A stretch of DNA of 64,000 nucleotides from Protonemura montana (taxonomy: Eukaryota; Arthropoda; Insecta; Plecoptera; Nemouridae), in NCBI GenBank assembly GCA_947568835.1, contig OX387610.1, positions 15,171,001 through 15,235,000 on the forward strand, written 5' to 3'. Positions 1,341 through 59,067 of the stretch are shown here, in pieces. The number at the start of each line of letters is the position of its first letter. Positions within the stretch are counted from its first letter, which is position 1. A program made the position numbers and the translations under genes. Below the pieces are notes generated by a model, which was not told the DNA's origin, did not search any database, and was given only the letters and a program-made list of their open reading frames with translations.

Positions 1341-1871
1341 GATCAGTTGAAATCTTATTTAAATTGCAAACGCTTGTAATGCACGGGGTATTTTATTATT
1401 AACAACACTATAACCGTCTAAAAAATTGATGCCCAAACGCGGACTCGAACCCCTATCTCCACCTGTCGCGGGTGTTGCTCTAACCAATTGATATACTTGG
1501 ACACCGATCTCCACCTGTCGCGGGTGTTGCTCTAACCAATTGAGCTACTTGGACCCCGATCTCCACCTGTCGCAGGTGTTGCTCTAACCAATTGAGCTAC
1601 TTGGACCCCGATCTCCACCTGTCGCGGATGTTGCTCTAACCAATTGAGCTACTTGGACCCCGATCTCCACCTGTCGCAGGTGTTGCTCTAACCAATTGAG
1701 CTACTTGGACCCCGATCTCCACCTGTCGCGGGTGTTGCTCTAACCAATTGAGCTACTTGGACCCCGATCTCCACCTGTCGCTGGTGTTGCTCTAACCAAT
1801 TGAGCTCCGACACTGGCTTTTTGGCTGTTTAGGCATCAATTTTTGAGACGGTTATAGTGTTGTTAATAACA
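1341..1871 (+). mobile_element. palindromic tRNA-array element, copy 1 (interior flipped)
   Basis: Flanked by a 15-bp direct repeat 'aatcacttctcatct' (1326-1340 and 1872-1886), a target-site duplication. The left end has the family head ('aaattgcaaacgcttg'), then an arm ending 'ttgatgcccaaac' near 1436. Seven 52-bp tRNA-like half units follow in minus orientation, then the inverted arm (1832-1865). The single box B-bearing tRNA end ('ggactcgaacc' = GGTTCGAGTCC reversed) lies beside the head arm, opposite to the other array-bearing copies, so the interior is inverted relative to the ends. It occupies the intron just before the zinc-finger exon. Confidence 0.9.
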
Positions 1872-1939
1872 AATCACTTCTCATCTCGTCAGGGCAAAAT
1901 TCAAGGCCCTAAATGTTAAACCCTGCTTCTCTGAACCAG

Positions 1940-2335
1940 AAGGAGAAGGAAGACATCGACCCCATCGAGGCGGGCAGCTCAGCAAACCACCGCGGTAGCG
2001 ATCTCGCGAGCAAAGTTCGATCGCCCGCCGTCGAAGTCGGCAAGCGACTGAAACGCAAGTCAAGCGCGACTGCGGCCGACGTAGCCAAGAAAGTCAAGAC
2101 GGAGCTCGTTCAGAACGATGCTCGATCAGCGGCGCAGTCCGTGCAGATCGTGACCGATGTCGTCGTGGAGGCGTCGCCCTCCGTCGTGGAGGAGGAGGTA
2201 AAGGAGGAGGAGCTAGAGGAGGACGGCGGCGGCGCGACTCCGTTCGGGGCGTTCGTGTGCCATGCGTGTCTGAAGTCGTTCCCGCGCAAGAACCTCTTAC
2301 AAGCGCACGTCCAGGAAAACCACGCCAAGAGATAA
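1940..2335 (+). CDS. terminal exon: acidic nuclear protein with C-terminal C2H2 zinc finger
   Basis: Encodes 131 residues to a TAA at 2333-2335. Visible parts in order: a basic stretch ('KRLKRKSS', 'KKVKTE') resembling a nuclear localisation signal, an acidic run ('EEEVKEEELEED'), then one C2H2 finger, F-V-C-x2-C-x3-F-x5-L-x2-H-x4-H, ending 'HVQENHAKR'. The finger suggests nucleic-acid binding. The acceptor 'ctctgaaccag' at 1939 is chosen because it starts in phase 0, as the PAH exon requires. An ATG at 1913 is also in frame but has a stop directly before it. The exon is GC-rich compared with its surroundings, as expected for coding DNA here. The protein is not identified; a chromatin or transcription role is inference from the PAH plus finger pairing. 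Confidence 0.75.
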   Translation, partial: KEKEDIDPIEAGSSANHRGSDLASKVRSPAVEVGKRLKRKSSATAADVAKKVKTELVQNDARSAAQSVQIVTDVVVEASPSVVEEEVKEEELEEDGGGATPFGAFVCHACLKSFPRKNLLQAHVQENHAKR

Positions 2336-2800
2336 GGCGGTCGATCGCTAGCTACGTTTACCTATCGGGCTCATTCTGGGCGTATTTCTTTTTGTACATA
2401 GTGTCGTAACGTTAACTGGAAGTAACCATATTCTCTTTGTTAGCGGTTGTTAACCGATGTAAGTTAGTTAATCAATGTCGCGTTTTTTAGAACGCATAGG
2501 CGTAGAGTTTGATAACGGATCGCGATGAGGCTTGGCTTGTTTCTTCCTGAACACAATCAGCCAGCCTCGAGGTTTAAGTGGATGTGTACGATAAAACTAT
2601 AATAAGTTGTTTTTATTGTGTACTATTATTGAATAATCTAGGTAAACTTAATGCTTCTGCACACAAATTGGTATGGATGTGGTCGTCTCCACATCGACCT
2701 ACGACCAATTGGTATGAATTAACAATCGATATGTAAAATGTTCTTTCGAAATATGAAATAATGATCCGTACGTGAAGATTGTTCTTCTTTGTCTTTTGTA
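2336..2800 (+). other. 3' UTR and intergenic spacer
   Basis: Follows the zinc-finger stop codon. No standard AATAAA signal is obvious; 'cgataaaactataataag' near 2590 is the nearest candidate. Nothing else recognised. Confidence 0.4.
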
Positions 2801-3037
2801 AACTTTTGCGAGTTGTATCGAAGTTGTGTACAAAGTGTCGACGGTCGGGAAAGTGGATTATTTTACGTGTTTTTATCGTGAACTTTGTGACTCTGGCGAT
2901 CAAAGATGGCTGCCGTCGTGCAGCGGACAGATTTCAGCAAAGTTAACGCAAGAGAGCATCGAGTCCCATATCGGGAGCGAAACCAGCTTCCGATTTAGCG
3001 AGGATTAGGCGATTTGGACAACGCGACCTTGTGCTAG
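2801..3037 (+). other. possible first exon of a plus-strand gene
   Basis: An ATG in good context ('caaagatggctgcc', ATG at 2906) opens a 30-codon frame beginning MAAVVQRTDF and stopping at 2998. A consensus donor 'tgctag|gtgagat' follows at 3037/3038. It could be a 5' UTR exon with an upstream reading frame. A 33-bp segment at 3590-3622 with a strong acceptor ('tttttctctgttgcag') and a donor (GTGAAT) could be a next exon. Weak; no homology recognised. Confidence 0.3.
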
Positions 3038-4036
3038 GTGAGATATTTGGGAGTTTGGAAGAAATTACAAGATGTGAAACGGTTATTTTGAGACACTTCT
3101 GTTAATAGCTTCTCTCTCTTTCATTTGGTAGATTGATTGATTTCCTTTAGTGGCTTAAAGCAAAAAAAACAAGCCATGAATCCTGTTAGTACATAAAAGT
3201 AATATTTATAAAATACAGTTATAATAATAATAATTAAAGTAGTTGTTAAACTCTCAACTCACTGAAGCAGCTTTGCTTTTGAGGATAAGAATAACAGGAA
3301 CAGCTGACTCAAGTCCTCGCACGTCATTTGCCCATAAGAGCTAATTGACATAAAAGCTTGCGTGTTGCCAGTTCACATCCTGAATAGTTGGTACTTGTAT
3401 ATTTTGCTTTGGACTTCTGCTTAACAAAGTTGGTTTAGTAAAATAAAAGTGAAGTTCTGAGAATTAAAATTGTTTAATGCTGTTTGTTGAGTGGACCCAA
3501 AATGTTGTCAAATTGCAGTGTTCGAATTTGTTTCTTGAAATCGCCGTTCACGTCGGAAAACATTAACCGCTGGTTTTTCTCTGTTGCAGCGCGTTCGTGT
3601 GGAATCGAGGCGGGTAGTGGAGGTGAATTCTTTGAACGTTTGGTTAATTGTACAATTGAATTTGTTGTACTGAATGAAAATGGATTTGATATTTTATGTT
3701 CAAGCCTGTAAATTAAATTTACATAAATTATAACAAGAAGTTACTGACTTGTGAATCATTTCTTAATTTTACGAACTTGAAGATGTCTCAGCTGCAAGAG
3801 ATTTGCAAGGAGATGAATGTTCTCTGTCCTACGTTTCTTTAAAACCGATGCAAATTAAATGTTTGCATGAACGGTGCATCTCTGGTAGCATTGATAAAGA
3901 GAGCTGCCTTATTAATAGTGTTAAAGTAGTGTAAAGTTTCAAGGCCACAATATAATTGTTCCTGCAGAGAACTGTGTAAGTCAAACAAACATCTACCAGA
4001 AATAGGAATCAGAGAAATGCTCGTGAACTTTATTTT
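3038..4036. other. AT-rich non-coding stretch
   Basis: Apart from the mini-exon candidate at 3590-3622 I see no gene, repeat or RNA here. Confidence 0.5.
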
Positions 4037-6870: not shown

Positions 6871-6983
6871 CTGTTTGAACCTGCGATGGAAACTTACCTC
6901 GTTTTTCTTGATTTTCTTCTGAGAATTCCCCGAGTTCCTCGACTCTCAACGCCTGGGCTATAGACATGACGTAAGCACACACG

Positions 6984-7690: not shown

Positions 7691-7742
7691 GTAATTTGTT
7701 CTGAGTGACAGATTGCATCAAGAGTTTGATAACAAATGTATC

Positions 7743-15750: not shown

Positions 15751-15907
15751 ACCAACGTGAAGTGCGCCCGGAAAGTGCGCCCGCGGCCCGGTAAACGGGC
15801 CCGGGAATCATCTCGACATAACGCAGCAAAAAGAAACACAATCAACACAAGACTCGGAAAAAAAAAAGGAACAGAAATTCATTTCTACGAACTTTTCAAC
15901 AATCCCT

Positions 15908-25000: not shown

Positions 25001-26430
25001 GTAAAGTATAATAGAAATAACAATAATAATAAAAGTATATATTTACAGATGACAGTTTTGCAAATTGTTAGAAATGTTTTAATATTCATCAAGGGTGTAG
25101 AAGTGGTTGTTGAGAAGGAAGATACGCAGTTTAGAGTCAAAGCAGCTGCAGGTTGGAGAGTCTTTGACGAGGTCAGGAAGGTGATTGTGGATTTTGGTAC
25201 AAAGGTCTCGGGGGTTGTGTTTGAAAAGTGTGGCTCGGATTTCCTGTCTTCTCCTCGTTGCGTGGGAGTGAACGGAGGAGGCAGGTGGTAATAGGTCAGG
25301 GTGGGATCTGACCACATCTGACTAGGGTGCTTGCAATTTGAACGAGAGTGCAGGTGAGGGTAAGGATTTTGAGAGTTATGAAGCGGGGTTTGCATGTCTT
25401 ACGGCGGGATGCTTCTGCAATAATGCGGACCGCTTTATTAGGATGAAATCTTATTTAAATTGCAAACGCTTGCAATGCGCGGGGTATTTTGTTATTAACA
25501 ACACTATAACCGTCTCAAAAAGCCAGTGTCCAAGTAGCTCAATGGTTCAGAGCAACACCCGCGACAGGTGGAGATCGGGGTCCAAGTAGCTCGATTGGTT
25601 AGAGCAACACCCGCGACAGGTGGAGATCGGGGTCCAAGTAGCTCAATGGGTTAGCGCAACACCCGCGACAGGTGGAGATCGGGGTTCGAGTCCTCGTTTG
25701 GGCATCAATTCTTGGGACGGTTATGGTGTTGTTAATAATAAAATGTGGACCGCTTGTTTTTGGGCTACAAAGATTCTTTTTGCTTGGGGTAAAGTGCCCC
25801 AGAAAAGGAGGTTGTAGGATATGTGTGAGTGTAGGTGTGCATGATAGACTAGTTTGACGGAGTGGGGGTTGACTACCTTGTCAAGTTGGTGGAGGATGAA
25901 GCCGGCGGTTTTGATTATGGAGAGGATTTTTTGAACATGAAGTGTCCAGTCTAGGTTAGGGGTGATGTGGATGCCAAGGAATTTAGTCGAGGAGGCACTA
26001 GGAATTCCTTTGTTGTTGACTCAGGTGAGGGGAGAGAAGTCGGGGAGTTTGTTTTAGTGTGGAAGTTGATGAAGATGGACTTTGCTGGCTGGAGGGCTAG
26101 TTTGTTGTTTAGGTAATAAGAGGTGATAATAATTGTTTGGTAGTTTGTTTTAGTGTGGAAGTTGATGAAGGTGGACATTGCTGGCTGGAAGGCTAGTTGG
26201 TTCTTTAGGTAATAGGAGGTGATAATAATTGTTTGGGAGTTTCCAGCTTGGGTGAGGGAGCTGGAAGGTTTGGATTTCGGGCTGGTGAGAAGGTGGGTCG
26301 TGTCGTCTGCAAATTGGAGGCCTTGAGTGATAAGTTGGGGAAGGTCATTGACGTAGAGGAGGAATAGTAGAGGGGAAAGCACCGAGCCTTGGGGTACGCC
26401 TTGTTTTGATAAAGAGGGGGGTAGCAATTT
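25001..26430 (-). mobile_element. LINE fragment (reverse transcriptase), interrupted by a tRNA-array element
   Basis: On the minus strand 'QGVPQGSVLSPLLFLLYVND' and 'LQFADDTTHLL' are RT motifs 4 and 5 (FADD catalytic pair). Further on come 'YNLLFWGTLPQAKRIFVAQK', then after the insertion 'AVRIIAEASRRKTCKP' and a C-terminus 'LPDLVKDSPTC', 'FLLNNHFYTLDEY'. The order matches Jockey/CR1-like LINEs. The 3' tail lies near 25000-25045 (TAA-rich). A stretch of about 85 bases is duplicated in tandem at 26058-26235. 5' truncated and broken; it lacks the endonuclease and the first RT motifs. Confidence 0.8.
25436..25741 (+). mobile_element. palindromic tRNA-array element, copy 2
   Basis: Inserted in the LINE with a 14-bp duplication, one mismatch ('aatgcggaccgctt' 25422-25435, 'aatgtggaccgctt' 25742-25755). 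Head with 'aaattgcaaacgcttgcaat', short left arm, junction 'aaaaagccagtgtccaag', three tRNA-like units in plus orientation, the last with box B 'ggttcgagtcc', then right arm ending in 'gttgttaataataaa'. Confidence 0.9.
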
Positions 26431-29077: not shown

Positions 29078-29727
29078 AGATGAAATCTCATTTAAATTGC
29101 AAACGCTTGCAACGCGCGGGGTATTTTATTATTATCAACACCATAAACAAATAGCTCAATTGGTTAGAGAAACACCCGCGACAGGCGGAGATCAGGGTCC
29201 AAGCAGCTCAATTGGTTAGAGCAACACCCGCGACAGGTGGAGATCAGGGTCCAAGTAGCTCAATTGGTTAGAGCAACACCCGCGACAGGTGGAGATCAGG
29301 GTCCAAGCAGCTCAATTGGTTAGAGCAACACCCGCGACAGGTGGAGATCAGGGTCCAAGTAGCTCAATTGGTTAGAGAAACACCCGCGACAGGTGGAGAT
29401 CAGGGTCCAAGCAGCTCAATTGGTTAGAGCAACACCCGCGACAGGTGGAGATCAGGGTCCAAGTAGCTCAATTGGTTAGAGCAACACCCGCGACAGGTGG
29501 AGATCAGGGTCCAAGCAGCTCAATTGGTTAGAGCAACACCCGCGACAGGTGGAGATCAGGGTCCAAGTAGCTCAATTGGTTAGAGCAACACCCGCGACAG
29601 GTGGAGATCGGGGTCCAAGTAGCTCAATTGGTTAGAGCAACACCAACGACAGGTGAAGATCGGAGTTCGGGTCCCCGTTTGGACATCAATTTTTGAGACG
29701 TTTATAGTGTTGATAATAATAAAATAC
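29078..29727 (+). mobile_element. palindromic tRNA-array element, copy 3
   Basis: Flanked by 'ttttcct' (29071-29077 and 29728-29734). Head, shortened left arm, then about ten 52-bp tRNA half units in plus orientation, a final unit with a box B-like 'agttcgggtcc', and the right arm. The first eight or so units alternate 'ccaagcagctc' and 'ccaagtagctc', a 104-bp dimer. Confidence 0.9.
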
Positions 29728-31267: not shown

Positions 31268-31501
31268 CGAATACTGCTTCAGTTTAGTGTTAGGACCCAA
31301 CGTCTTGAGCATCGACTCAATTAGCAATGATTACTGCAACAACAATCAGCTGCACGGTGCGATGAAGATGAATGATTTTTTGCACTAATTGTGTACAAAT
31401 TATGCAAGATTTTGTGAAATGTTAAATACTTTTAAAACTACATTCGGTCGCTTTCATTCACATGTGGGCAAAAAAACACTTAAAAAAAACATACAAATCA
31501 T
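30966..31501. other. spacer with GA microsatellite
   Basis: A (GA)n run lies at 31231-31260. Otherwise nothing recognised. Confidence 0.5.
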
Positions 31502-32494
31502 TTTATTATTATCAACACTATAACCGTCTCAAAAATTGATGTCCAAACGGGGACTCGAACCCCGATCTCCACCTGTCGCGGGTGTTGCTCTAACCAATTG
31601 AGCTACTCGGACCCCGATCTCCACCTGTCGCGGGTGTTGCTCTAACCAATTGAGCTACTTGGACCTCGATCTTCACCGTTCGCGGGTGTTGCTCTAACCA
31701 ATTGAGCTACTTGGACCTCGATCTCCACCTGTCGCGGGTGTTGATCTAACCAATTGCGCTACTTGGACCCCGATCTCCACCTGTCGCGGGTGTTGCTCTA
31801 ACCAATTGAGCTACTTGGACCCCGATCTCCACCTGTCGCGGGTGTTGCTCCAACCAATTGAGCTACTTGGACCCCGATCACCACCTGTCGCGGGTGTTGC
31901 TCTAACCAATTGAGCTACTTGAACCCCGATCTCCACCTGGCGCGGGTGTTGCTCTAACCAATTGAGCTACTTGAACCCCGATCTCCACCTGTCAAGGGTG
32001 TTGCTCTAACCAATTGAGCTACTTGAACCCTGATCTCCACCTGTCGCGGGTGTAGCTCTAACCAATTGAGCTACTTGGACCCCGATCTCCACCTGTCGCG
32101 GGTGTTGCTCTAACCAATTGAGCTACTTGGACCCCGATCTCCACCTGTCGCGGGTGTTGCTCCAACCAATTGAGCTACTTGGACCCCGATCACCACCTGG
32201 CGCGGGTGTTGCTCTTACCAATTGAGCTACTTGAACCCCGATCTCCACCTGTCGCGGGTGTTGCTCTAACCAATTGAGCTACTTGAACCCCGATCTCCAC
32301 CTGTCAAGGGTGTTGCTCTAACCAATTGAGCTACTTGAACCCCGATTTCCACCGGTTGCGGGTGTTGCTCTAACCAATTAAGCTACTTGGACACCGTTTG
32401 GGCATCAATTTTTTGAGACAGTTCAAGTGTTGATAATAGTAAAATGCCCCGCGCATTGCAAGCGTTTGCAATTTAAATAAGATTTCAACAAAAC
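31502..32494 (-). mobile_element. palindromic tRNA-array element, copy 4 (longest)
   Basis: Flanked by 'tacaaatcat' (31492-31501 and 32495-32504). Lies in minus orientation: tail arm at left, box B-bearing unit next to it ('ggactcgaaccccgatct'), about sixteen 52-bp half units, then the other arm and the head ('gcaagcgtttgcaatttaaa') at right. Confidence 0.92.
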
Positions 32495-38225: not shown

Positions 38226-39080
38226 CCTTATTATTATTAACTACACTATAACTGTCTCAAAAATTGATGCCCAAACGGGGACTCGAACCCCGAACTCCAC
38301 CTGTCGCGGGTGTTGCTCTCAGGGCATCGAACCGAAATTAATGTTGGTTCGGGTTCGGGTTCAGGTTTTTTTCCCCTTCGGTCTGCTTGGGATCGGATTC
38401 CAAAGGGGTATGGGTTTAAGTTCGTTCAAGCGATAGTTTTCGCAAATTTTGCTTATTATATTTTTCCAACAATAAAGTGATAGACATTTAAATGTTTGCA
38501 ATAATATACTGAATGAAATTGGTACTTTTGGATCGATGTTTTATTTTGATTAGGTAGTCTCGGATCTTATAAATTGCAAGTAAATCCTCTTAGAATTTAA
38601 ATGTTACCCTTTATGAAAAGTCGATTCGTGTCAAGACAAAATTTGTTAAGCTGGGTTATATTTTGTCAGACACATTTTGATAAAGTTCGGCTTTACAAAA
38701 ATATCTTGCATCTCTCCTGGAAGGATATCTGCACAATTGTAAATAAAACGCAAGATGTGGAAGAACTCGATAAAACCCGAGAAATAATACAGGTTCCGGT
38801 TCGGGTTCGGGTTTCCAAATTTTCCGGATTCTGGTTCAGGTTCGGGTTCCACACATAATTGCGGTTTTTTTGGGTTACGGGTTCGATGCCCTGGTTGCTC
38901 TAACCAATTGAGCTACTTGGACACTGGCTTTATTAGACAATTTTAGTGTATTTGATGAGATATATTTGACGCGATAGGTGGATATCGGGGTTCGAGTCCC
39001 CGTTTGGGCATCAATTTTTGAGACGGTTACAGTGTTCATATAATTAAACACCCCGCGAATTGCAAGCGTTTGCAGTTTAA
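38226..39080 (-). mobile_element. palindromic tRNA-array element, copy 5, split by another element
   Basis: Tail arm at 38232-38270, box B-bearing tRNA end 'ggactcgaaccccgaact' and one tRNA-like unit, then the nested element 38320-38893, then the remainder and the head arm to 39080 ('gcaagcgtttgcagttt'). Here the second arm also carries a plus-oriented tRNA 3' half ('cggggttcgagtccccg'), so the palindrome extends through the T arm. No clear target duplication. Confidence 0.85.
38320..38893. mobile_element. hAT-like non-autonomous transposon with 8-bp target duplication
   Basis: Ends are 'cagggcatcgaacc' and 'ggttcgatgccctg', a perfect 14-base inverted repeat, flanked by 'gttgctct' at 38312-38319 and 38894-38901. 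Eight-base duplications and CAG-starting ends are typical of hAT elements. The interior has no transposase; subterminal regions are full of 'ggttcggg' motifs in both orientations. Confidence 0.9.
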
Positions 39081-39099
39081 ATCACATTTCATCTAAATC

Positions 39100-41287: not shown

Positions 41288-41432
41288 AGACGAAATCTGT
41301 ATTTAAATTGCAAACGCTTGCAATGCGCGTGGTATTTTATTATTATATCAACACTATAACCGTCTCAAAAATTGATTGTTTGGGCATCAATTTTTGAGAC
41401 GGTTATAGCGTTCATATTAATAAAAATGTATT
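41288..41432 (+). mobile_element. palindromic tRNA-array element, copy 6, arms only
   Basis: Head and both arms meet without any tRNA array ('aaaaattgattgtttggg'). Flanked by 'aatatct' (41281-41287 and 41433-41439). Confidence 0.85.
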
Positions 41433-43106: not shown

Positions 43107-46100
43107 ATGATGTACGTGGTCGTACAAAACCCTAACCCAGTAATAAATGTGTTCTTCTGTTTGCTCGCAGCCCCCGCGTCCTTCTTCCTGCCATGGCTAC
43201 TGACAGCCGCAGCATTGGTAACCCCACGAGACCCTGCAATGACCCGACTCAACACCGTACACCAGTGGAAAGAGATCGACTTCGATTGGCCATCACCAGC
43301 AGCTAAAGAGACAGCAGTAGCAGCCGGCAAATATGTACCAGCGAATAACTTGCCACTGGGTCTGGAGATATGGGAAGACCGCATCTTTGTCACGTTGCCG
43401 AGGTGGAAGGACGGGATACCGGCCACGCTAGCGACTGTCTCCACGTCGCCGTCAAAGGTTTGGGAGCAATTTCTTTGTTTTGTTAGATTTACAAAGTCAA
43501 GTCGAATAAGAACCAAACGAATAGAACGAGTTCTAACGAATAGAACGAGTTCTAACGAATAGATTAATTGTTTAGCATCGTTGATAAGTACATGTACAAA
43601 GTTACATCACGGGGCGTTGTCAATAACAATAATAATCATAATAAAACTAGTTACTATAACATTAATTTACATGTGAATAAATATCATAACTACCAGCACT
43701 AGTTCAGAAACCAGTTTTTAATACTTAAAAAAATAATAAACATAGTAATAATAGTTGCAAAGATGTATTAGATCTTAACACAGCCTTGCCATTGTACAAT
43801 ATGGCAGAGAGACAATATGGTAGAAACGGAGGGCTAGAGATATTTATCTCAATTTTCTTCCTGGAATACAAGGTTTTTAAAATAGTTTGCCAGGCGATTG
43901 TAATGGTAATTTATGAGAAGAATGTCCTTCAATATTTGACCATTTAAATTATCTTTCACTGCAATGTCGCACCATTACAGAAATCCACTGCGTTCTTTTT
44001 AAATAACGGACATTGATTTAAATTCGAGCAACTTGCAGGTGCGTTGGAAAGGCTTAGACTAGAACCACGCATTCTTGCTATTTTTCTCGAAGTAAGATAG
44101 ACATAGATCTTGTACACGGATATACTTTCAATGCATTATCCATTGTTTAAAAAAAGAGGTACATGCCTATAAATATCACTGGGTAAGTCAGTGAATGTTT
44201 ATGTCTATCGAGGTAACGGCATTACAATAATCATTAGACTCGTGTTACTTTAATCTAACTTAACATCGCAGAATATAAAAGTTAAAGTCGATCTAGTTGT
44301 CAATGAGCTCGCACTCCACAACCCCGATAGCAGACAGAAGAACTATCTCGAGACTCCACTCCACGAGCCGTGGTCTAGTCACGACTTGCAAAACAGCTGC
44401 ACGACTTGTCGCGTGCGCTGGTTGGAAATCTGCATCGGGTCTCGGTGTCGAAACCCGGTGCGTTCAATTCTCTTGTTTTAATTAGAGCAGTGGCGTGCGG
44501 AGGTTAGGAGGTCGCCCCCGCACAACGCTAAACGCTGCTTGTTAACATTTGGTTAAAATACCAGAAGAGAGAATTTTGTAAAACATATCTATTCTAATTA
44601 TTTGGGAATTGCTTGAGCTCCGGTCCACTTTATATTGCATTCTAACAAAGTATGTATTGTGTCTGGGTAGGTACATATTCTCTTCAATTCTTCAATTCAC
44701 TTCCTTCATCCATTTCCCAAAACTTTTCACTTAATTTTCGACCATACCACTATAATTACATGCCACTCTTCAACACCTCTTTCCACAATCCCATAGTTCC
44801 AAGGCAATCAATCACTTGTCATAATTCAAATATACTTGCAGTATTTCTGTAGATCGTGCATTTATACATGACAACCATTTTGAAACGCCTTCAGCAGGTA
44901 AAATAATAATAATAAGATTCAAAACATCTCACAGTTTATGATAGTTTTTAGACTCATGTCTACTTGATTCTAAACCTTGAAGAAGTTACTAGTACATGTG
45001 ACGAACGTCGGGAAATTTTAGTTGTCTTTTACTGAGCATTCAAAACCCATTTCAAATAGTTTATCTCACAGTTTGACTAAATTATCCCTAAACAAACTCA
45101 AGTAGGCAGCCTAATTGCTACAACTTCACCTGCATGGACCACATCTTTTAGCATTCTAATGAAAGAGATCCACTTCTTAATGTTGCGCTTCGAAACTTAA
45201 TAAATGCACAGACTTCAAAATACTTGTACAGTAAAATCCACAATACAATAATTCCCAGTACAAGCTGTCTGCGCTGTGACAGTATATTTCAGAACGTCCA
45301 GTTCATACTGGTTGGTTCCAGTGTAAAGCGGGCTAAATCAGGACGCCGACTTCAAGACTAGGGTTGCACGCTACGCCACTGTCCATTCTTCGAACCCGTC
45401 CTCGGGACACCAACAGATTCACTCAATACAGGAGACAATAGAAGAAGTCTGGGAACTGCACACCTTCATGTACCGATGCAATAATCATTAATTACCTGCA
45501 ATCCCAACACGACAATCATTCACTTTCGCCATCTACTTTCATTGCATAGCACCTCGATCGTCCACAGGCGCTCATTTCTGGCGCAAAGTCAATTATTGAG
45601 ACGGTTATAGTGTTCATAATTATAAAATTCACTATGAAGGTTTTTAGACTCATTCCTACTTGATGTAACCCCAATGCCCGTGAAGCCACTGTCGTATGAA
45701 ATTTAATTTCGATATTTCTCGTAGGCTAACTCGCTTTTGAATATCATTATTATTATTATTTGTGGTGTTTAACGACGCACTGTTTTGACATCTGGCCATG
45801 CGGCACTGGTCTAATGGCGTCGGTGAATGAGTGGATGATGATGAGGGTGATGATGAACCTAACCTTGACTAGAAGGGAGGAGGGAAAAACCCGGTGCGGC
45901 ACGTAGCCTACTCCTGTCGAAGACCAAGGGGACCACCGGCTTAACGTCCCTTCCGAAGGACGGTACAACGCGAACAACAGGATTCCTCCACAAATCCATG
46001 CTGTCGAGAGGTTGATAAGCAAGGCAAGTGAAGTTGCTTTACTAACTTTCATCCCTCCAACCTCTCTCCCGAACAGAACTGGACATGTGTATGATGGTCA

Positions 46101-49100
46101 CCCATCCAATACCTGACTCAGCGCAGTGTTGCTTAACTTCGGTAATCTCACGAGGACCGGTGTTTCCAACCTGCTAAACCGTTCTGTCTTTTTAATAACG
46201 TTACATGTATATCAACCGTTGAGGTAAATATTAATGGAGATTTTTTGAGCATGAAAAGTCTCAAAAGCGAGTTAACCCACGAGAAATATCGAAATTAAAT
46301 TTCATACGACAGTGGCTCCACTTAACGTGATGTTCCGGTACTCTGCATTTTTGTCGGTAAGGTAGTCATTTGGCGGCCATCTTTCACGCAGAGACTGTAA
46401 CATTGACGTTGTTTCTCTACCTAGAACCTACACACTCAACGCTTTTATGTACTATCCTGACGATCCCAAACGGGATTCATGGCTTGTTAATGTTTTATTT
46501 ATTTTTAAAGGAAATCAATTAATTTTTCCCCCAGAAATCGCCTCTACTGAAGCCCTATCCCAACTGGTCTTGGCACAGCGCTGAAGATGATTGCGATGGT
46601 CTCACTTCCGTCTTCCGGTTGAGCGTGGACCCATGTGGTCGTCTCTGGGTCATCGACTCTGGAATCGTCGACGCAGTGGGGGTGGCAAGACAAGTGTGTC
46701 CAGCCAAGATGGTTGTGTTTGATTTAAAGACAGACAAGTTGCTGTGGAGATATCGGATACCAGCCGACCAAGTCAAGGAGGGATCGCTGTTCACCAATAT
46801 CGCCGTGGATGTTAGAGACGGTGAGTTGGGTCGAAGTTTTCCAATCATTTCTTCATTTATTTATTGTTAATGGAGCTAAAGCCAAAATAGGGGGTTCTTT
46901 TATTGATGTTATGCTCATAACATATTCATGAATGTTGGTTTAATTGACGGTTCTACCAACAGAGCTATCCGGGCAGCCTGCGTAGCTTGTGTGACCGGCT
47001 AGCTCAGTTGTTTGAGCACCTAACCAGCAATCGGGAGGTCCCGGGTTCATATCCCTGTTCGTTTACACAATACGCCAATCTAGCTCCCTTTCCAAAATAG
47101 ATTTAACAAAACTAACTAGCTTAGTACATGTGCACACATCCAATACCTGACCCAGCGCAGTGTTGCTTAACTTTCATCCCTCCAACCTCTCTCCCAAACA
47201 GAACTGGTCATGTGTATGATGGTCACCCATCCAATACCTGACCCAGCGCAGTGTTGCTTAACTTTCATCGCTCCAACCTCTCTCCCGAACAGAACTAGTC
47301 ATGTGTATGATGGTCACCCGTCCAATACCTGACCCAGCGCAGTGTTGCTTAACTTTCATCCCTCCAACCTCTCTCCCGAACAGAACTGGTTATGTGTATG
47401 ATGGTCACCCATCCAATACCTGACCCAGCACAGTGTTGCTTAACTTCGGTAGTGTCACGGTAACGGCTGTACGCATGGATGGTGTCAAAGCGTTAGGTTT
47501 TTGCGTTCATTGCGAACAGCTTGTTTTTTCAAAGTTCAAAAATGCATTTCACAGTCAATCGCTTCGGCTCGTTTTTGCCGGTTTTTGCCGGCACCTTACG
47601 GTGTTAGGTACCAACCAACTAAGACAACTACTTGCCGGTTTACTTAACGAAACAAAAAACTTTTACACCAAATAAGATGCATTTTTCAGAAGTTTTCTCG
47701 AGAAAGTTACAAAATCAAGCATCAATCAAGTTTGTTAGTTTCTTATTTAATTTTTAGAAATAATAATCCAATTGCATAACACTTTGGTGAAATATCAAAT
47801 GATAACTTCACTCGCCTTGCTTATCAACTCTCGACAGCATGGATTTGTGGAGGAATCCTGTTGTTCGCGTTGTACCGTCCTTCGGAAGGGACTTTATGTG
47901 TATAATGGTCACCCATCCAATATCTGACCCAGCGCAGTGTTGCTCAACTTTCATCCCTCCAACCTCTCTTCCGAACAGAACTGGTCATGTGTATGATGGT
48001 CACCCATCCAATACCCGACTCAGCGCAGTGTTGCTTTACTTTCATCCCTCCAACCTCTCTCCCGAACAGAACTGGTCATGTGTATGATGGTCATGTGTAT
48101 GATGGTCATGTGTATGATGGTCATGTGTATGATGGTCATGTGTATGATGGTCATGTGTATGATGGTCATGTGTATGATGGTCATGTGTATGATGGTCATG
48201 TGTATGATGGTCATGTGTATGATGGTCATGTGTATGATGGTCATGTGTATGATGGTCATGTGTATGATGGTCACGTGTATGATTGTCATGTGTATGATGG
48301 TCATGTGTATGATGGTCACCCATCCTAACCCTAACCTTACAAATGACAGTCAACATTATTGTCAAGTTTAAATTGTCTCTACAGGTAAATGCGATGAAGC
48401 AGTTGCCTACTTGGCCGACGTCTGGAGGTTTGCGATCGTGGTTTACAGCTGGAACGAAGATCGCTCTTGGCGGGTGTCACATAACCTCTTCTTCCCCGAC
48501 CCACTGGCCAGCGAGTATCATCTTCATGGCCTTGACTTCCGTTGGATGGACGGTGTCTTCGGTCTGGCCCTCAGTCCCACAGAGAACAACTCCGGAGACC
48601 GCACGCTTTACTTCCATCCTATGTCTTCTTACAGGCAAGTGGTAGACCGTTGTAAATCACTATAACAAGTCTTTACCGAAACCTGGGTATAGACAGCTCA
48701 TACTTAGCTCATACTTGGCTCATACATAGCTCATACTTAGCTCATACTTAGCTCATACTTGGCTCATACTTAGCTCATACTTAGCTCATACATAGCTCAT
48801 ACTTAGCTCATACTTAGCTCATACTTAGCTCATACTTGGCTCATACTTAGCTCATACTTAGCTCATACTTAGCTCATACTTAGCTCATACTAAGCTCATA
48901 CTTAGCTCATACTTGGCTCATACATAGCTCATACTTAGCTCATACTTAGCTCATACTTAGCTCATACTTGGCTCATACATAGCTCATACTTAGCTCATAC
49001 TTAGCTCATACTTACCTCATACTTAGCTCATACTTAGCTCATACTTTGGTACATATTTACAAATAATGCACAATGCTTAGATGAAATGTGATTTAAATTG

Positions 49101-52100
49101 CAAACGCTTGCAACGCGCGGGGTATTCTATTATTATAGTCTCAAAAATTGATGCCCAAACGGGGACATTTCGATATTTCGACATTTGAACATTTGGGACA
49201 TTCCCCATTTGGGCATCAATTTTTGAGACGTCTATAGTGTTGATAATAATAAAATGCACAATGCTGTTATTTCCTTTTGAAAAACTCGACGCTTAGCAGC
49301 AGTAAAATCTTACAGACTTCTAGAGTCAGTAGATCAGTGTCACTGGGGCAGTGTTTAATGCGTTGCTTTGCAGAATTAGTCACGATGACTCGACATTAAA
49401 TTAGATATCACGACTCAGAGCTGTCAGATATCAAGCAGCTGAAAACGTGATTAAGTCAAGAATCTGTTGAAATTACTCTCCCGAAGTTGTCGGGTTTCCA
49501 TCTTTAAAACGAGTCGCTAGAGAAGAAAAGTAGCTCGGTATTTGAACAATCTTTGAGAGAAGATTCCAATACGTATCTTCCTTAATGTGGTATTTTATGT
49601 CATGGCATGGGCTGGACTTTGGGTTCGGATTGAAAGAATAATATCACCTCCATATTTAGTAAAAGCGTTGAGTGTGCAGGTTCTAGGTAGAGAAACAACG
49701 TCAATGTTACAGTCTCTGCGTGAAAGATGGCCGCCAAATGACTACCTTACCGACAAAAATGCAGAGTACCGGAACATCACGTTAAGTGGAGCCACTGTCG
49801 CATGAAATTTAATTTCGATATTTCTCGTGGGTTAACTCGCTTTTGAGACTTTTCATGCTCAAAAAATCTCCATCAATGTTTACCTCAACGATTAATATAA
49901 ACGTAACGATATTCAAAAGCGAGTAACCTACGAGAAATATCGAAATTAAATTTCATACGACAGTGGCTCCACTTAACGTGGTGTTCCGGTACTCTGCATT
50001 TTTGTCGGTAAGGTAGTCATTTGGCGGCCATCTTTCACGCAGAGACTGTAACATTGACGTTGTTTCTCTACCTAGAACCTACACTAAATGGAAGAAGTGA
50101 GTGATTGAAGATCGCATGGTCCACGTATCTTCTGATGCGTTTCTTGGCAGTGGTTTATCCGATCAACACACATGAGCCAGAAGATGTTTGGTGTGGAAAT
50201 CACATTATTTGCTCAATTGAATTTCAGAAATGAAGCATACAAAGAAATATTATTCAGGATGACGAAGTGTATTTTTTTCTTACAATGGACCAGATGTTTT
50301 CACTTTTTTTTTTCAGTGAATAGATTAAATTATAAAAAAGAAAACTCGAAGCAAGCGCATAAATCGGCGTGATGCAGAGATGCAATCTTTGTTATAAAGA
50401 AACCACATTGAGATTTCTGAAGAACTTGCGATGTACTCGATCCAGTTTATTATCACCAGCAATAATTAGGGTATTGGTTGATAGCATTGTCGTTCGTTTG
50501 GATCATTTAAAATAGTGCTATCACCGGCTTAACGTCCCTTCCGAAGGACGGTACAACGCGAACAACAGGATTCCTCCACAAATCCATGCTGTCGAGAGGT
50601 TGATAAGCAAGGCGAGTGAAGTAGCTGTACTAACTTTCATCCCTCCAATCTCTCTCCCGAACAGAACTGGTCATGTGTATGATAGTCACCCATCCAATAC
50701 CTGACCCAGCGCAGTGTTGCTTAACTTTCATCCCTCAAACCTCTCTCCCGAACAGAACTGGTCATGTGTATGATTGTCACCCATCCAATACGTGACCCAG
50801 CGCAGTGTTGCTTAACTTTCATCCCTCAAACCTCTCTCCCGAACAGAACTGGTCATGTGTATGATTGTCACCCATCCAATACCTGACCCAGCGCAGTGTT
50901 GCTTAACTTTCATCCCTCAAACCTCTCTCCCGAACAGAACTGGTCATGTGTATGATTGTCACCCATCCAATACCTGACCCAGCGCAGTGTTGCATAACTT
51001 TCATCCCTCCAACCTCTCACCCGAACAGAACTGGTCATGTGTATGATGGTCACCCATCCAATACCTGACCCAGCGCAGTGTTGCATAACTTTCATCCCTC
51101 CAACCTCTCACCCGAACAGAACTGGTCATGCGTATGATGGTCACCCATCCAATACCTGACCCAGCGTAGTGTTGCTTAACATTCATCCCTCCAACCTCTC
51201 TCCCGAACAGAACTGGTCATGTGTATAATGGTCACCCATCCAATACCTGACCCAGCGCAGTGTTGCTTAACTTTCATCCCTCCAACCTCTCTCCCGAACA
51301 GAACTGGTCATGTGTATGATGGTCACCCATCCAATACCTGACCCAGCGCAGTGTTGCATAACTTTCATCCCTCCAACCTCTCACCCGAACAGAACTGGTC
51401 ATGCGTATGATGGTCACCCATCCAATACCTGACCCAGCGTAGTGTTGCTTAACATTCATCCCTCCAACCTCTCTCCCGAACAGAACTGGTCATGTGTATA
51501 ATGGTCACCCATCCAATACCTGACCCAGCGCAGTGTTGCTTAACTTTCATCCCTCCAACCTCTCTCCCGAACAGAACTGGTCATGTGTATGATGGTCACC
51601 CATCCAATACCTGACTCAGCGTAGTGTTGCTTAACTTTGGTAATTATTTCAATGATTCTCCTGTGCAGAGAGTTTGCTGTAAGCACCGCTGTGCTGCGCA
51701 ACGAGACGCGAGCTGCAGCCGAGCCCGAAGCATTCCAGGTTTTGGGTGAGGCACGTGGTGCTAACTCCTACCACTCCAGCGCTAGCGGCATGGACCGCTC
51801 GGGGGTGCTCTTCTACAACCTGGTTACCAGGGATACTGTCGCGTGCTGGGACAGTCGCAAGGAGTACATTCCCGAGGCACAGGGCGTGGTTGACAGGAGC
51901 AATGTGTCGCTGGTCTTTCCCAATGACCTTAAGGTAAACCCGGCACAGGATCTTAAATTGCCATCATTTTTAACTTTTAATTAATTCTCGTCAACTAAAT
52001 AATAAGTAGGTATGTTAATTTTTAGACTCATGTCTACTTAATGTAAACTTAGTACTAGTTTTAACAAAAACTATTTCAACTGGGTTTTGAATGCTAAGTG

Positions 52101-52745
52101 AAGAACTGAATTTCCCAACGTTTTGCAACTTGTATCTGTTACTTTATCAAGGGTAAGAGCAGTCATGACAATTTTCTGATAACAAAAGAACCACAAAAAA
52201 TTATAACAATTACCAAGTTCAAGCTTCCTAAATGCATCTAAATAAAATAATCAGGGTCAATAACTAAAAAACCAATATATTTTGTATTTTCTGAAATTAA
52301 ATCCCGAACACATCTTGCCCTTGTTAAAGTAACAGGTACAAGTTACGAAACGTCGGGAAATTTAGTTGTTCTTCACTTGGCATTCAAAACCCATTTGAAA
52401 TAGTTTTTGTTAAAACTAGTGCTAAGTTTACATCAAGTAGACTTGAGTCTAAAAACAATCATAACCTCTTAACAAATTCAAAGATTCGCTGTCTTCAGCC
52501 GAGTGAATGTTAAACGCTTGCAATCAATATTCCAGGTTGATCTGGAGAAGCGACAGAGCGTGTGGGTGCTAAGCAACAAACTCCACGACTTCCTCTACCG
52601 GAAGCTGGACCCGATGGCCGTCAACTTCCGAGTGCTGAAAGCTTTCACAGATGATGCAGTCCGAGGGACAGTCTGCGATCCTGGTACCACCCTGACCACA
52701 CCAGTGCTGCGCTCTGGAGCCAATGTTCGATGTCCTGGATACTAA
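43107..52745 (+). CDS. yellow / major royal jelly protein family gene, five exons
   Basis: Exons 43171-43457 (or from an ATG at 43107), 46535-46820, 48385-48634, 51669-51933 and 52536-52745 join in frame with matching phases into about 431 residues, or 453 from 43107. Family length is roughly 400-540. It shows the MRJP domain hallmarks listed per exon. Yellow proteins are secreted; in insects members act in cuticle pigmentation, and one is a dopachrome conversion enzyme. The function of this member is unknown. The hydrophobic N-terminus 'FFLPWLLTAAALV' fits a signal peptide. The true start is uncertain: a strong acceptor at 43170 suggests a further upstream exon. The third intron has a GC donor. 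Introns hold 5S-derived arrays and other repeats, but the exons look intact. Confidence 0.88.
43171..43457 (+). CDS. yellow-family exon 1 (recognised)
   Basis: Encodes the signal-like hydrophobic stretch and the N-terminal MRJP part 'HQWKEIDFDWPS', 'YVPANNLPLGLEIW', 'DRIFVTLPRWKDGIPATL', the conserved region that names the family. Acceptor 'ttctgtttgctcgcag' at 43170, donor AAG|GTTTGG, ends in phase 0. If translation starts at the in-frame ATG 43107 no intron is needed here. Confidence 0.85.
44935..45070 (+). mobile_element. palindromic Penelope-associated repeat, fragment
   Basis: 'tagactcatgtctacttgat' start, hammerhead-like segment at 44975-45012 ('gtgacgaacgtcgggaaa') and the arm 'gcattcaaaacccatttc'. 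Confidence 0.7.
45590..45668 (+). mobile_element. element fragments (tRNA-array arm and Penelope-associated end)
   Basis: 'tgagacggttatagtgttca' is one arm of the tRNA-array element without the rest (45594-45632). It is followed at once by 'tttttagactcat' and 'cctacttgatgtaa', the end of the Penelope-associated repeat. Confidence 0.6.
45676..46434 (-). mobile_element. foldback repeat split by a 5S-derived SINE
   Basis: Left part 45676-45742 ('ccactgtcgtatgaaattta') and right part 46191-46434 match the element at 49671-50095 in reverse orientation. Between them lies a 5S-derived SINE in minus orientation (45743-46190) with one array unit, its tail at left ('ttattatttgtggtgtttaa') and 5S head at right ('ccggtgtttccaacctgct'). 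The target duplication is unclear. Confidence 0.8.
46535..46820 (+). CDS. yellow-family exon 2
   Basis: Encodes 'KSPLLKPYPNWSWH', 'LTSVFRLSVDPCGRLWVIDS' and 'CPAKMVVFDLKTDKLL', then 'FTNIAVDV'. These are the core MRJP motifs (PYPSW, VDxCGRLWVLDSG, FDLxTDxL). Acceptor 'tttttcccccag', donor GACG|GTGAGT, phase 0 in and phase 1 out. Confidence 0.92.
46993..47070 (+). other. tRNA-like sequence in intron 2
   Basis: 'ggctagctcagttgtttgag' fits box A and the D arm; 'cccgggttcatatccc' fits box B and the T arm. The acceptor stem does not pair convincingly. Probably a tRNA pseudogene or SINE head. Confidence 0.5.
47120..47455 (-). mobile_element. 5S-derived 91-bp array, about 3.5 units
   Basis: Minus-oriented units as at 30.4 kb ('cccatccaatacctgaccca', 'gaacagaactggtcatg') without the SINE body or tail. 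Confidence 0.85.
47810..48330. mobile_element. rearranged 5S-derived SINE with nested 15-bp array
   Basis: Body in plus orientation (47815-47892, 'tggatttgtggaggaatcct') joined head-on to minus-oriented 91-bp units (from 47893). Within the last unit the 15-bp segment 'tcatgtgtatgatgg' is repeated 16 times (48076-48315). Confidence 0.85.
48385..48634 (+). CDS. yellow-family exon 3 with GC donor
   Basis: Encodes 'KCDEAVAYLADVWRFAIVVY', 'SWRVSHNLFFPDP' and 'LDFRWMDGVFGLALSP', then 'LYFHPMSSY'. These match the MRJP motifs AYIADxxGYGLVVY and DGxFGMALSP. Acceptor 'attgtctctacag'. The donor is AG|GCAAGT: joining at this GC gives Y-R-E-F-A-V with exon 4, as the family expects. Using the next GT would put exon 4 out of frame. 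Confidence 0.9.
48695..49046. repeat. 11-bp minisatellite, about 32 units
   Basis: 'agctcatactt' repeated with variants 'ggctcatactt' and 'agctcatacat' that recur in blocks, so larger segments were duplicated. Lies in yellow-family intron 3. Confidence 0.95.
49078..49252 (+). mobile_element. palindromic tRNA-array element, copy 8, no array
   Basis: Flanked by a 13-bp duplication 'aatgcacaatgct' (49065-49077, 49253-49265). Head and two arms surround only a short 'catttcgatatttcgacatt' spacer. The copy called 7 is the arm fragment at 45594-45632. Confidence 0.9.
49671..50095. mobile_element. foldback element with about 175-bp inverted arms
   Basis: Left arm 49671-49846 and right arm 49914-50095 are reverse complements ('caggttctaggtagagaaac' against 'gtttctctacctagaacct'), with a 67-base centre. 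A second copy lies in intron 1 (45676-46434). No coding capacity. Similar segments ('cctcaacgatt', 'ggagccac') at 54.2 and 58.1 kb suggest a larger family. Confidence 0.85.
50096..50519. other. intron 3 spacer, nothing recognised
   Basis: No supported feature. Confidence 0.4.
50520..51640 (-). mobile_element. 5S-derived SINE with 11-unit 91-bp array beside exon 4
   Basis: Starts in the SINE body ('ggcttaacgtcccttccgaa'; tail missing), then about 11 minus-oriented 91-bp units. A 273-bp (three-unit) block is repeated ('ggtcatgcgtatgatgg' with 'cagcgtagtgttgc' near 51125 and 51400). The array stops about 28 bases before the exon 4 boundary. Confidence 0.88.
51669..51933 (+). CDS. yellow-family exon 4
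   Basis: Starts with the base completing the split Arg codon, then 'EFAVSTAVLRNE', 'ASGMDRSGVLFYNLVTRDTV', 'CWDSRKEYIPE' and 'SLVFPNDLK'. These fit the MRJP motifs SxGVLFFNLVTxxAVxCW and FPNDLKV. Acceptor 'gattctcctgtgcag', donor AAG|GTAAAC, phase 0 out. Confidence 0.92.
52010..52475. mobile_element. palindromic Penelope-associated repeat, full copy
   Basis: Left end 'tagactcatgtctacttaat' and right end 'agtagacttgagtctaaaaa' are inverted repeats of roughly 100 bases. Each arm holds one hammerhead-like segment (52112-52153 minus, 52319-52358 plus). A TA at either end may be the target duplication. Lies in yellow-family intron 4. Confidence 0.8.
52536..52745 (+). CDS. yellow-family exon 5, C-terminus
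   Basis: Encodes 'VDLEKRQSVWVLSNKLHDFL', 'RKLDPMAVNFRVL', 'GTVCDPG' and stops at TAA 52743-52745. WVLSNRL and the NFRIL/GTVCD block are the C-terminal MRJP signatures. Acceptor 'caatcaatattccag', phase 0 in. Confidence 0.92.
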   Translation, partial: VDLEKRQSVWVLSNKLHDFLYRKLDPMAVNFRVLKAFTDDAVRGTVCDPGTTLTTPVLRSGANVRCPGY

Positions 52746-52844: not shown

Positions 52845-53172
52845 CTATTTTATTATAAACAACACTATAACCGTCTCAAAAATTGATGCCCAAACGCGGA
52901 CTCGAACCCCGATCTCCACCTGTCGCAGGTGTTGCCCTAACCAATTGAGCTACCTGGACCCCGATCTCCACCTGTCGCGGGTGTTGCTCTGAACCAATTG
53001 AGCTACTCGAACCCCGATCTCCACCTGTCGCGGGTGTTGCTCTAACCAATTGAGCTATCTGGACACTGGCTTTTTGAGGCTTTTTGGCTTTTTTGAGGTT
53101 ATATAGCGTTGTTAATAATAAAATACCCCGCGCATTCCAAGCGTTTGCAATTTAAAAATAAGATTTCATCCT
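52845..53172 (-). mobile_element. palindromic tRNA-array element, copy 9
   Basis: Flanked by 'aagtttatg' (52836-52844, 53173-53181). Tail arm left, box B-bearing unit ('ggactcgaaccccgatct'), three units, junction 'ggacactggctttttgag', reduced second arm and head at right. It begins 100 bases after the yellow-family stop codon, so it may lie in the 3' UTR. Confidence 0.9.
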
Positions 53173-53181
53173 AAGTTTATG

Positions 53182-56630: not shown

Positions 56631-57140
56631 AAACCGAACGGTTTGGCGTGTTGGAAACACCGGTTCTCATTAGATCACCGAAGTTAAGCAACACTGCGCT
56701 GGGTCAGGTATTGGATGGTTGACCATCATACACATGACCAGTTCTGTTCGGGAGAGAGGTTGGAGGGATGAAAGTTAAGCAACACTGCGCTGGGTCAGGT
56801 ATTGAATGGGTGACTATCATACACATGACCAGTTCTGTTCGGGAGAGAGGTTGGAGGGATGAAAGTTAGCACAGCAACTTCACTCGCTTTGCTTATCAAC
56901 CTCTCGACAGCATGGATTTGTGGAGGAATCCTGTTGTTCACGTTGTACCGTCCTTCGGAAGGGACGTTAAGCCGGTGATCCCCTTGGTCTTCAACAGGAG
57001 TAGGCTACGTGCCGGCACTGGGTTTCCCCTCCTCCCTTCTAGGCTATGTTAGATTCATCATCGACGCCATTAGACCAGTGCCGCACGGCCAGATGTCAAA
57101 ACAGTGCGTCGTTAAACACCACAAATAATAATAATAATAA
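56631..57140 (+). mobile_element. full-length 5S rRNA-derived SINE
   Basis: Flanked by an 11-bp duplication 'tgtaatggatg' (56620-56630, 57141-57151). The head is a 5S rRNA piece ('aacaccggttctcattagat', 'caccgaagttaagcaac', 'attggatggttgacc'), then a second 91-bp unit, the body ('ctctcgacagcatggatttg', 'ccttcggaagggacg'), and the tail 'cagtgcgtcgttaaacacca' ending in (AAT)n. This is the reference copy for the fragments elsewhere in the window. 5S-derived SINEs are the SINE3 class. Confidence 0.92.
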
Positions 57141-57151
57141 TGTAATGGATG

Positions 57152-58080
57152 GTCGAGTACAGTAATCACCCTGACCTACGCGATTTAACTCAACATTAAC
57201 CCATAACAGTTCTATAAAACAAAATAAAACTAATCGCAACCACGGTCCACCCACCCACACCCCCCAAGATATTGAATAAATCTGCAAAAGTCACGTCTTC
57301 TCTTGGGGCTATAATTACAAGGCGACTGCACCTTGTCCCGTCACGTGTTGACCTTCCCACCAACAGACAAGACGCTGCCGCCGCCGCCACGGCGATCTCT
57401 AGCGCAGATCTGGCTCAGTCTTGTTTCTCTTCTCGGGGTCTCAGCATCTTCACCTAGAGCAACTGACACAGGTAGGTGACGCCGTCGCTGCACTCGTATA
57501 CCTGCCTAGTCAAGCATTGCTAGTAAATGTTCGCGTGCTTTGCGCAAGTGTAGTCGCTGCTTTAGTCGCTGGGTAAAGTCGCGTTTTTTTTTTTTCTTAT
57601 GGGCTATAAAAAGAAAAACTAACGCATGGCGATTTTTTTTGGCGACGCCCTGACTTTTGTGTGTAGTGTCATTTAAAAAACTGGTCAATCAAAAAAAGAA
57701 TTTTGTTCAATTCAAGAAGATTTTAGCAAAAATCCTCTAAAAAACATTGAAAACTCGTTTTTTAACCCGCGTACAGTGCGTTCCGAAGTTTTTTTCAAGT
57801 AATTTTTAAAGAAATTCTGCAGAAATATGAAAGGATGTCGTTTTCACGCGTTTGTTTGGTTTTCGAGCGGAAAATATTTGCTGCTTGCGAAATTTCTATC
57901 CGAGCAGAAAATTGTAAATTCTATTTCTGTCAAATCGGGCGGCGCCTTCATAATTCTACCGGCATCAAGAAACTGTGTCGATCTGGATCCGGAGCGTCGT
58001 CTCCCATACTTTGGCCGGTGCCACTTGATTAGAGTTATTATTTATATTGATGGGCTTTATACAATACCACTTCTATGTCT
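57152..58080. other. spacer, possible untranslated exon
   Basis: A GC-richer stretch 57280-57471 ends in a consensus donor (cacag|gtaggt) and could be a first, untranslated exon. No coding evidence. The rest is featureless. Confidence 0.3.
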
Positions 58081-58084
58081 CCGA

Positions 58085-58592
58085 GAAAATAACCGCCAAA
58101 ATTACTAACATATCGTCAAAAATATATGATGCCGCCAGGTGGAGTCACCGTCGCTTAGAGTGTTAAGAAATTTCGTTATTTCTCTCAGATTACTCGCATT
58201 TGAGTCTGGTTTACACTCAATTAATCTTTATTAATGCTAACCTCAACGATTGATTGAATTATATATATTAAGTAGTGAATGGCAAGCGCCATCGGGTGGC
58301 ACCTACCGTTACCACGTGTTGCCGGCCTCGTTTGCTCAGCAGCAAGCGCCATCGGGTGGCACCTACCGTTACCGTTACCACGTGTTGCCGGCCTCGTTTG
58401 CTCTGCAGCAAGCGCCATCGGTGGCTTCTACCGTCACCACGTGTTGCCGGCCTCGTTTGCTCAGCAGCAAGCGCCATCGGGTGGCACCTACCGTTACCAC
58501 GTGTTGCCGGCCTCGTTTGCTCAACAGCAAGCGCGATCGGGTGGTAGCTAACGTTACCACGTGTGCCGGCCTCGTTTGCTCAGCAGCAAGTT
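58085..58592 (+). mobile_element. repeat arm plus 60-bp array (copy 2)
   Basis: Arm 58140-58255 ('attactcgcatttgagtctg', 'cctcaacgattgat') then five 60-bp units, the second with an extra 'accgtt'. Same order as 54150-54750. Confidence 0.85.
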
Positions 58593-58914
58593 TATCTCTA
58601 TGAATATCTCCTATAAACTCGATGGTTTGATAAATGAGTCACGTCATGAAAATCAGAGCATGACGTGAATTCTATCTTCAAGCTAAAGGTCAGTTCGCTG
58701 GTCGGAACCCAAAAGGTCGTCGAGACGCGAAAATCCAGAAAGATGACAAAAACAAAGTATAGATAAAGTGATAAAGAATTCCTTGAATTTATGGGTGAAG
58801 CATTTGGTTCGAATTGATGTCATGGGATTCGATTCTCGAAATTCTCAGTGATTGGGGATTCTCTGTTAAATATCGATTCTAAATCCGATAATTTCAGAAT
58901 TTAGGGAAAGTGTT
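58593..58914. other. spacer, nothing recognised
   Basis: No supported feature; ends in the target duplication of copy 10. Confidence 0.4.
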
Positions 58915-59067
58915 AGGATGAAATGTGATTTAAATTGCAAACGCTTGCAATGCGCGGGGTATTTTATTATTATCAACACTATAACCGTCTCAAAAATTGA
59001 TGCCCAAACGTGGATGTCTGTTTGGGCATCAATTTTTGAGACGGTTATAGTGTTGATAATAATAAAA
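58915..59067 (+). mobile_element. palindromic tRNA-array element, copy 10, arms only
   Basis: Flanked by the 13-bp duplication 'tagggaaagtgtt' (58902-58914, 59068-59080). Head, two perfect 48-bp arms and a 9-base centre, no array. The cleanest example of the minimal mobile unit. Confidence 0.93.

Follow-up and report, generated by a model that had tools for sequence, protein, structure and literature searches.

Palindromic copies of a tRNA-derived SINE in a nemourid stonefly, very probably formed by twin priming at a fixed linker site

The window analyzed here is a stretch of 64,000 nucleotides from the stonefly Protonemura montana (Nemouridae; GenBank assembly GCA_947568835.1, contig OX387610.1, positions 15,171,001 to 15,235,000 of the forward strand) with nine palindromic repeats, which belong to a tRNA-derived short interspersed nuclear element (SINE) of this species. 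The palindromes very probably arise by target-primed reverse transcription, in which the second target strand primes at a fixed AU-rich linker of the SINE RNA (twin priming). In all likelihood, a large part of the SINE insertions are completed in this way, and the palindromes are a frequent by-product of insertion. An initial annotation of the window had instead taken the palindrome with its central array of tRNA halves for the layout of the family itself.

Anatomy and abundance of the SINE

Genome-wide counts were taken over the 258-Mb assembly (34 contigs). Its contig C34 carries COX1 as well as COX2, the latter translated by the invertebrate mitochondrial code; the named sequences most similar to this COX2 are from the nemourids Mesonemoura (98%) and Amphinemura (97%), with 95% of the query covered. 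The tail hairpin was found in 4238 exact copies, and the nine window copies are members of one interspersed family. The full unit, read from copies elsewhere in the genome, has the order D-T-A-TAIL: a 5' domain (D), about 160 nt long and preceding the tRNA, the tandemly repeated tRNA 5' half (T) of 52 nt, a 60-nt module (A) with the tRNA 3' end and the arm, terminating in AATAATAAAA, and a TAIL of 45 nt that includes the hairpin, terminates in TTTCATC and is followed mostly by CTAA or TAA. The one-sided head of the initial annotation corresponds to the RNA 3' end. The proposed tRNA-like core was supported in 4 of the 9 window copies by the Rfam tRNA model (33-50 bits) and by ARAGORN (tRNA-Ser); in three loci with full elements only tRNA and 5S exceeded the Rfam gathering score. 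The predicted fold of a full-length sequence assembled by eye had a z score of -7.3 against 100 shuffles; in it, the 5' arm of the RNA pairs with the 3' arm, and degenerate arms of the RNA's own flank the tRNA.

The search with D gave 1624 candidate places, and 32 of the 40 that were scored were identical over 115/115 bases, which argues that the family was recently active. The best SINE matches listed, the exact T-T strings and the identical D domains crowd a few regions (contig C1 30-33 Mb, C4 23-26 Mb, and C13 14.7-15.5 Mb), some of them, among the matches listed, near contig ends. The usual upstream context was missing at 197 hairpin sites. Four of these were fetched, all of the TTTGCGC kind, and all four belong to an older form of the same SINE; on these four, the reading of such sites as ends of long interspersed nuclear elements (LINEs) was rejected. 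Among titles and abstract starts in the literature, with Repbase and SINEBase outside the comparison, no stonefly SINE family and no SINE with an array of tRNA halves was described, in agreement with the initial view of a new-looking family; nor did titles and abstract starts describe any SINE that is often inverted at a single site.

Inverted pieces, junctions, and target duplications

The core sample consisted of 40 stretches of contig C1 picked by the tail hairpin. They cover 47 of the 53 hairpin places listed between C1 432649 and 7684697, the other six being omitted through the choice of stretches, in which structure played no part. The stretches gave 45 clusters with TAIL; the hairpin is inexact in some of these, and a TAIL match of 18 nt was excluded. 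An inverted piece opened 31 of the 45 clusters, and 14 were non-inverted; L072, with a short inverted-looking stretch missed by BLAST, was scored as non-inverted. By BLAST ends, 26 of the 31 inverted pieces begin at A57-60, which is one RNA site, the end of A. In 27 of the 31 clusters, the inverted piece has no TAIL sequence; TAIL lies within it in four (L009, L013, L070, and L085) and stands at its outer end in none.

Loci L029-L058 were selected by similarity and lie outside this sample. All material together amounted to 97 clusters, of which 15 were dropped, namely three loci representing copies of the window itself, four TAIL fragments, two clusters cut by the locus end, L036 (a near-copy of L032, 2 kb off, with an identical junction), L053 (flanks as in L052), and L100-L103. 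The remaining 82 copies comprised 56 inverted and 26 non-inverted ones. With the junction coordinate of composite inverted pieces taken from the last unit, the 56 inverted copies had 56 different junctions, the sole repeat being that of the local duplicate pair L032/L036. In 29 of these copies, the inverted piece is the one that reaches further 5', and in 26 it is the sense piece. The palindrome thus appears to arise on insertion and not by inheritance. By BLAST ends, the two pieces have 1-5 bases in common at 17 junctions, are separated by gaps of 0-3 bases at 9, and are parted by more than 3 additional bases at 30; in six copies, the sense piece begins at the tail, with no overlap. Genome-wide, there were 982 sense arm-tail junctions compared to 455 arm starts without a tail, a pattern estimated to accept roughly two thirds of random flanks, so that part of the tail-less arm starts is missed.

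Target site duplications (TSDs) were scored against a null of 6642 mismatched left/right flank pairs from the 82 copies (99th percentile 9.0, maximum 14.5). A score of at least 9.0 was reached by 30 of the 56 inverted copies (26 of them above 9.0). The alignments of these 30 copies, which allow mismatches and include microhomology bases, gave duplications of 9-25 bp, 23 beginning with A and 24 ending with T; this bias would fit first-strand priming by a T-terminal primer on an RNA whose 3' end is UAA. The 7-15 bp first given for the duplications are about right for the exact cores, shorter than the aligned lengths, and 2 of the 9 window copies have no clear duplication. Retroposition, proposed at the outset in place of cut-and-paste, is borne out by variable duplications and variable 5' ends at a constant 3' end, and the fixed length that would point to a DNA transposase was not found in the 30 copies.

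At the duplication end, the RNA complement is continued by a mean of 3.3 bases, compared to 0.41 in other registers (30 copies; zero in 5). Among 100 listed of the 455 arm-start places, flank base -1 was A in 54, T in 38, G in 8, and C in 0, and base -2 was T in 69, in agreement with the RNA complement ...GGTA; GGTA itself closes seven of these flanks, which may belong to sense copies with altered bases. The linker AAUAAUAAAAUA joins the arm stem to the tail hairpin. The second priming stretch falls in a 20-nt unpaired linker of the predicted fold of the full-length sequence assembled by eye, with an unpaired probability of 0.8-1.0.

Proposed mechanism and alternative readings

The first nicked target strand would prime at the RNA 3' end (TAIL...UAA) and copy toward the 5' end. 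The second nicked strand, with a 3' end that is mostly T or A, would pair by a few bases with the linker and then copy the same kind of RNA. Joining of the two antisense cDNAs would yield inverted A(-T-D) followed by sense (D-T-)A-TAIL, which is the palindrome. Because the first cDNA extends beyond the second primer in 50 of the 56 copies, either one cDNA was presumably displaced or two RNA molecules were used.

Several observations weigh against twin priming at the linker. Five of the 31 inverted pieces start elsewhere (A54, A50, A48, A35, and D102), and L058, outside the sample, opens with an inverted tail, contrary to the prediction of the model. The arm overlap has a median of 44 bp (range 22-60; 46 copies with at least 20 aligned bases, module length setting the upper bound), which exceeds the human L1 twin-priming median of 12. 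No TSD at threshold was found in 26 of the 56 inverted copies, and only 5 of the 26 non-inverted copies have one, their poor scores being perhaps due to age or wrongly set ends. The position of D upstream of the tRNA leaves the promoter of the full-length RNA unexplained. A partner LINE, whose involvement is presumed, was not found: the comparison of the tail with LINE 3' ends, suggested in the initial annotation, gave no match in the 3' regions of 11 reverse transcriptase (RT) loci, chosen for diversity and several possibly stopping short of the LINE 3' end, and the tail was likewise absent from the window LINE and another 8 RT loci, against a total of at least 150 RT matches. By eye, L089 and L090 run into histone genes and L097 resembles a long terminal repeat element. 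The histone coding DNA downstream of L089 and L090 (contigs C11 and C16), seen by eye, may mean site-specific insertion in histone genes. The window LINE has an open reading frame at 41587-42936 with an RT domain (Pfam RVT_1, 101 bits), followed by (ATT)n; its 3' region is, by eye, unlike the SINE tail.

The inverted pieces of L009, L013, and L070 traverse D and then enter a second TAIL, with TSD scores above the threshold in L009 (10.0) and L070 (13.5) and below it in L013 (5.0). L012 is a head-to-tail dimer within a single 14-bp duplication, and L022 is a second one, with 14 exact duplication bases but a TSD score of only 8. These dimers and composite pieces fit end-to-end template jumps. 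A diagnostic dinucleotide was identical between the arms in 21 of 27 readable copies, compared to 7.3 expected at random pairing, which favors one source lineage, although sources co-active in time would agree as well. The arms of L015 and L037 differ at both diagnostic bases and look like products of two sources.

Two-ended target-primed reverse transcription might even be the normal integration of this SINE, its RNA offering two priming sites (the 3' end and, about 45 nt further 5', the exposed AU-rich linker) and two RNAs often being present per complex, a tentative extension that we hold to be rather doubtful. Two RNAs per complex are suggested there because the arms of some copies differ in subfamily and because of the head-to-tail template jumps; the RNA would then have, in the linker, an inbuilt priming site for the second strand, perhaps under selection.

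Mobilization by a Penelope-like element in place of an APE-type LINE would be compatible with twin priming. Penelope-like elements leave inverted and tandem copies; here, inverted and head-to-tail copies are both present and no LINE partner was found. Nothing directly contradicts this source, no search aimed at Penelope-like proteins having been made; we consider it improbable. The inherited layout of the initial annotation, in which palindromic source elements are transcribed and retroposed, is highly improbable. It accords with the palindromic form of all nine window copies and with the RNA's own degenerate arms around the tRNA in the predicted fold, but the junctions recur only in 2-kb neighbors, 14 of the 45 sampled clusters are non-inverted and the arm start adjoins the target duplication with microhomology. 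Marginally less credible still is a snap-back, in which the first cDNA folds via arm complementarity and copies itself: the two arms pair in the RNA fold and L023 resembles an arm chimera, yet in 29 of the 56 copies the inverted piece holds sequence missing from the sense piece, and the tail, which should be copied too, is absent from 27 of the 31 sampled inverted pieces. A DNA element of the Helitron/HINE-like or foldback type, which would have a minisatellite at its center and inverted repeats in subterminal position, was rejected on the target duplications and is hardly conceivable: the window copies do match HINEs in outline, with a hairpin close to one end, arms that are inverted, and a tandem array in the middle, but Helitrons and HINEs are not known to duplicate their target, and miniature inverted-repeat and foldback transposons typically have fixed ends and a fixed duplication length, whereas duplications are present here, of 9-25 bp, with variable 5' ends and variable piece and arm lengths.

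Full T units numbered 1-66 in the 42 elements having any, in either orientation, and the exact 85-nt T-T string occurred 1630 times genome-wide, overlapping matches included. Array growth by duplication through a short repeat is likely because the T-T joint falls at a point of similarity between the tRNA start (GTCCAAGT) and the T-arm (GTTCGAGT). In most of the 13 arrays of at least four full units, the within-array identity was close to the between-array identity; L042 and L057 were more alike internally, as were, to a lesser degree, L029, L034, and the array at 29078. Lag profiles were mostly flat, with a two-unit rhythm at 29078, and the arm divergence exceeded the array divergence in 12 of the 13 elements with both measures, again except 29078.

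Window copies and comparison with known systems

The hairpin search of the window with up to three mismatches gave 19 matches compared to 0.08 expected, corresponding to nine sites on both strands and one fragment, and in the module maps all nine copies start with an inverted arm. The nine copies, arm fragment, hairpin, inverted arms, and 52-bp tRNA-like units of the initial annotation are real, and its 0 to 16 units between the arms match the full units counted. The 48-bp perfect arms that it gave for all copies were found only at 58915 (48/48), the other eight differing by 3.6-11.4% over 23-54 aligned bases. Seven of the nine copies have a TSD score of at least 9, the 99th percentile of the null; those at 38226 and 41288 are below. 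The features are as follows.

1341..1871 (module map 1348-1873), minus strand: SINE copy 1, opening with a short inverted piece of A, followed by a sense T array with 6 full units, A, and TAIL; TSD core AATCACTTCTCATCT at 1326-1340 and 1872-1886
25442..25743, minus strand: SINE copy 2, inverted A and 3 T units, sense A(26-60) and TAIL; TSD AAGCGGTCCRCATT (transcript strand)
29079..29724, minus strand: SINE copy 3, inverted A and 10 T units, sense A(38-60) and TAIL
31501..32487, plus strand: SINE copy 4, inverted A and 16 T units, sense A(11-60) and TAIL
38231..39093, plus strand: SINE copy 5, inverted A-T-D, sense T-A-TAIL, interrupted by an insertion (38320-38893); without a clear TSD
41289..41425, minus strand: SINE copy 6, inverted A, sense A, and TAIL, loop almost nil; TSD under threshold
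45589..45627, plus strand: isolated arm fragment (A 22-60)
49080..49254, minus strand: SINE copy 7, inverted A(8-60) separated by filler from sense A(7-35), and TAIL; TSD AGCATTGTGCATT (transcript strand)
52507..52524, minus strand: hairpin fragment with 3 mismatches
52848..53170, plus strand: SINE copy 8, inverted A, T units, and D(155-168), sense A(26-60) and TAIL
58917..59067, minus strand: SINE copy 9, 48-bp perfect arms, short loop, and TAIL; TSD AACACTTTCCCTA (transcript strand)

The insertion in copy 5 is an unrelated 574-bp element inside a T unit, with ends CAGGGCATCG / CGATGCCCTG and an 8-bp duplication GTTGCTCT, which we take to be hAT-like. Exons of yellow/major royal jelly protein genes lie at 43171-52000, where 51688-51936 matches Pfam MRJP at 5.8e-14 and the rest was seen by eye. 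Other long tandem arrays occupy 46-469, 4038-6876, 15901-20433, 32882-35820, and 62630-64000, with units of 52, 292, 147, 87, and 48 bp, respectively; the 147-bp array switches strand at about 16792.

A 5S rRNA-derived SINE with tandem 91-bp partial 5S units is also present in the window (30421-30964, 47133-47446, 47896-48093, 50631-51638, and 56633-56868). It likewise carries tandem partial copies of its part derived from RNA polymerase III (Pol III) genes, and differs in the 5S rRNA head and, by eye, in a TAA-repeat tail; two unrelated SINEs of the stonefly genome have Pol III-derived parts in arrays. With tRNA-derived SINEs (SINE2) the palindromic family shares the tRNA-like region by the Rfam tRNA model, the constant 3' tail, target duplications, and many copies, and it differs in the domain that precedes the tRNA over about 160 nt, the tandem tRNA-half array, and the 5' inversion of most sampled copies.

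Twin priming of L1 insertions was reportedly described by Ostertag and Kazazian in 2001. Alu is a short Pol III-derived element, as is the stonefly SINE. With 5'-inverted human L1, the stonefly copies share the inverted 5' piece, 5'-junction microhomology, and duplications mostly of 10-20 bp, whereas priming in the stonefly is mostly at one site and the RNA is that of a SINE. Inversion was found in 31 of the 45 sampled stonefly clusters compared to 18-31% in L1, and the overlap median was 44 bp (the module sets an upper bound) compared to 12 bp. PMC2912911 gives 5' inversion in 639 of 2068 insertions for L1, in 1 of 5554 for Alu, and in 4 of 477 for SVA, and PMC12016303 gives inversion in 21.9 and 18.4% of L1 and 0.02% of Alu, with a median cDNA overlap of 12 bp. 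Most L1 inversions occur at 10-20 bp duplications according to PMC4245944, and second-strand priming in LINE/SINE integration is described as poorly known in PMC6895275.

The stonefly palindromes very probably present a known process, twin priming, in a new setting: it is known for L1 and very rare in Alu. One genome would offer hundreds of natural twin-priming events from one short RNA site, and base pairing, cDNA overlap, and the number of RNAs used (one or two) may be read directly from these insertions. Palindromic repeats with tandem centers call for caution elsewhere, as they may be by-products of integration and not DNA transposons.

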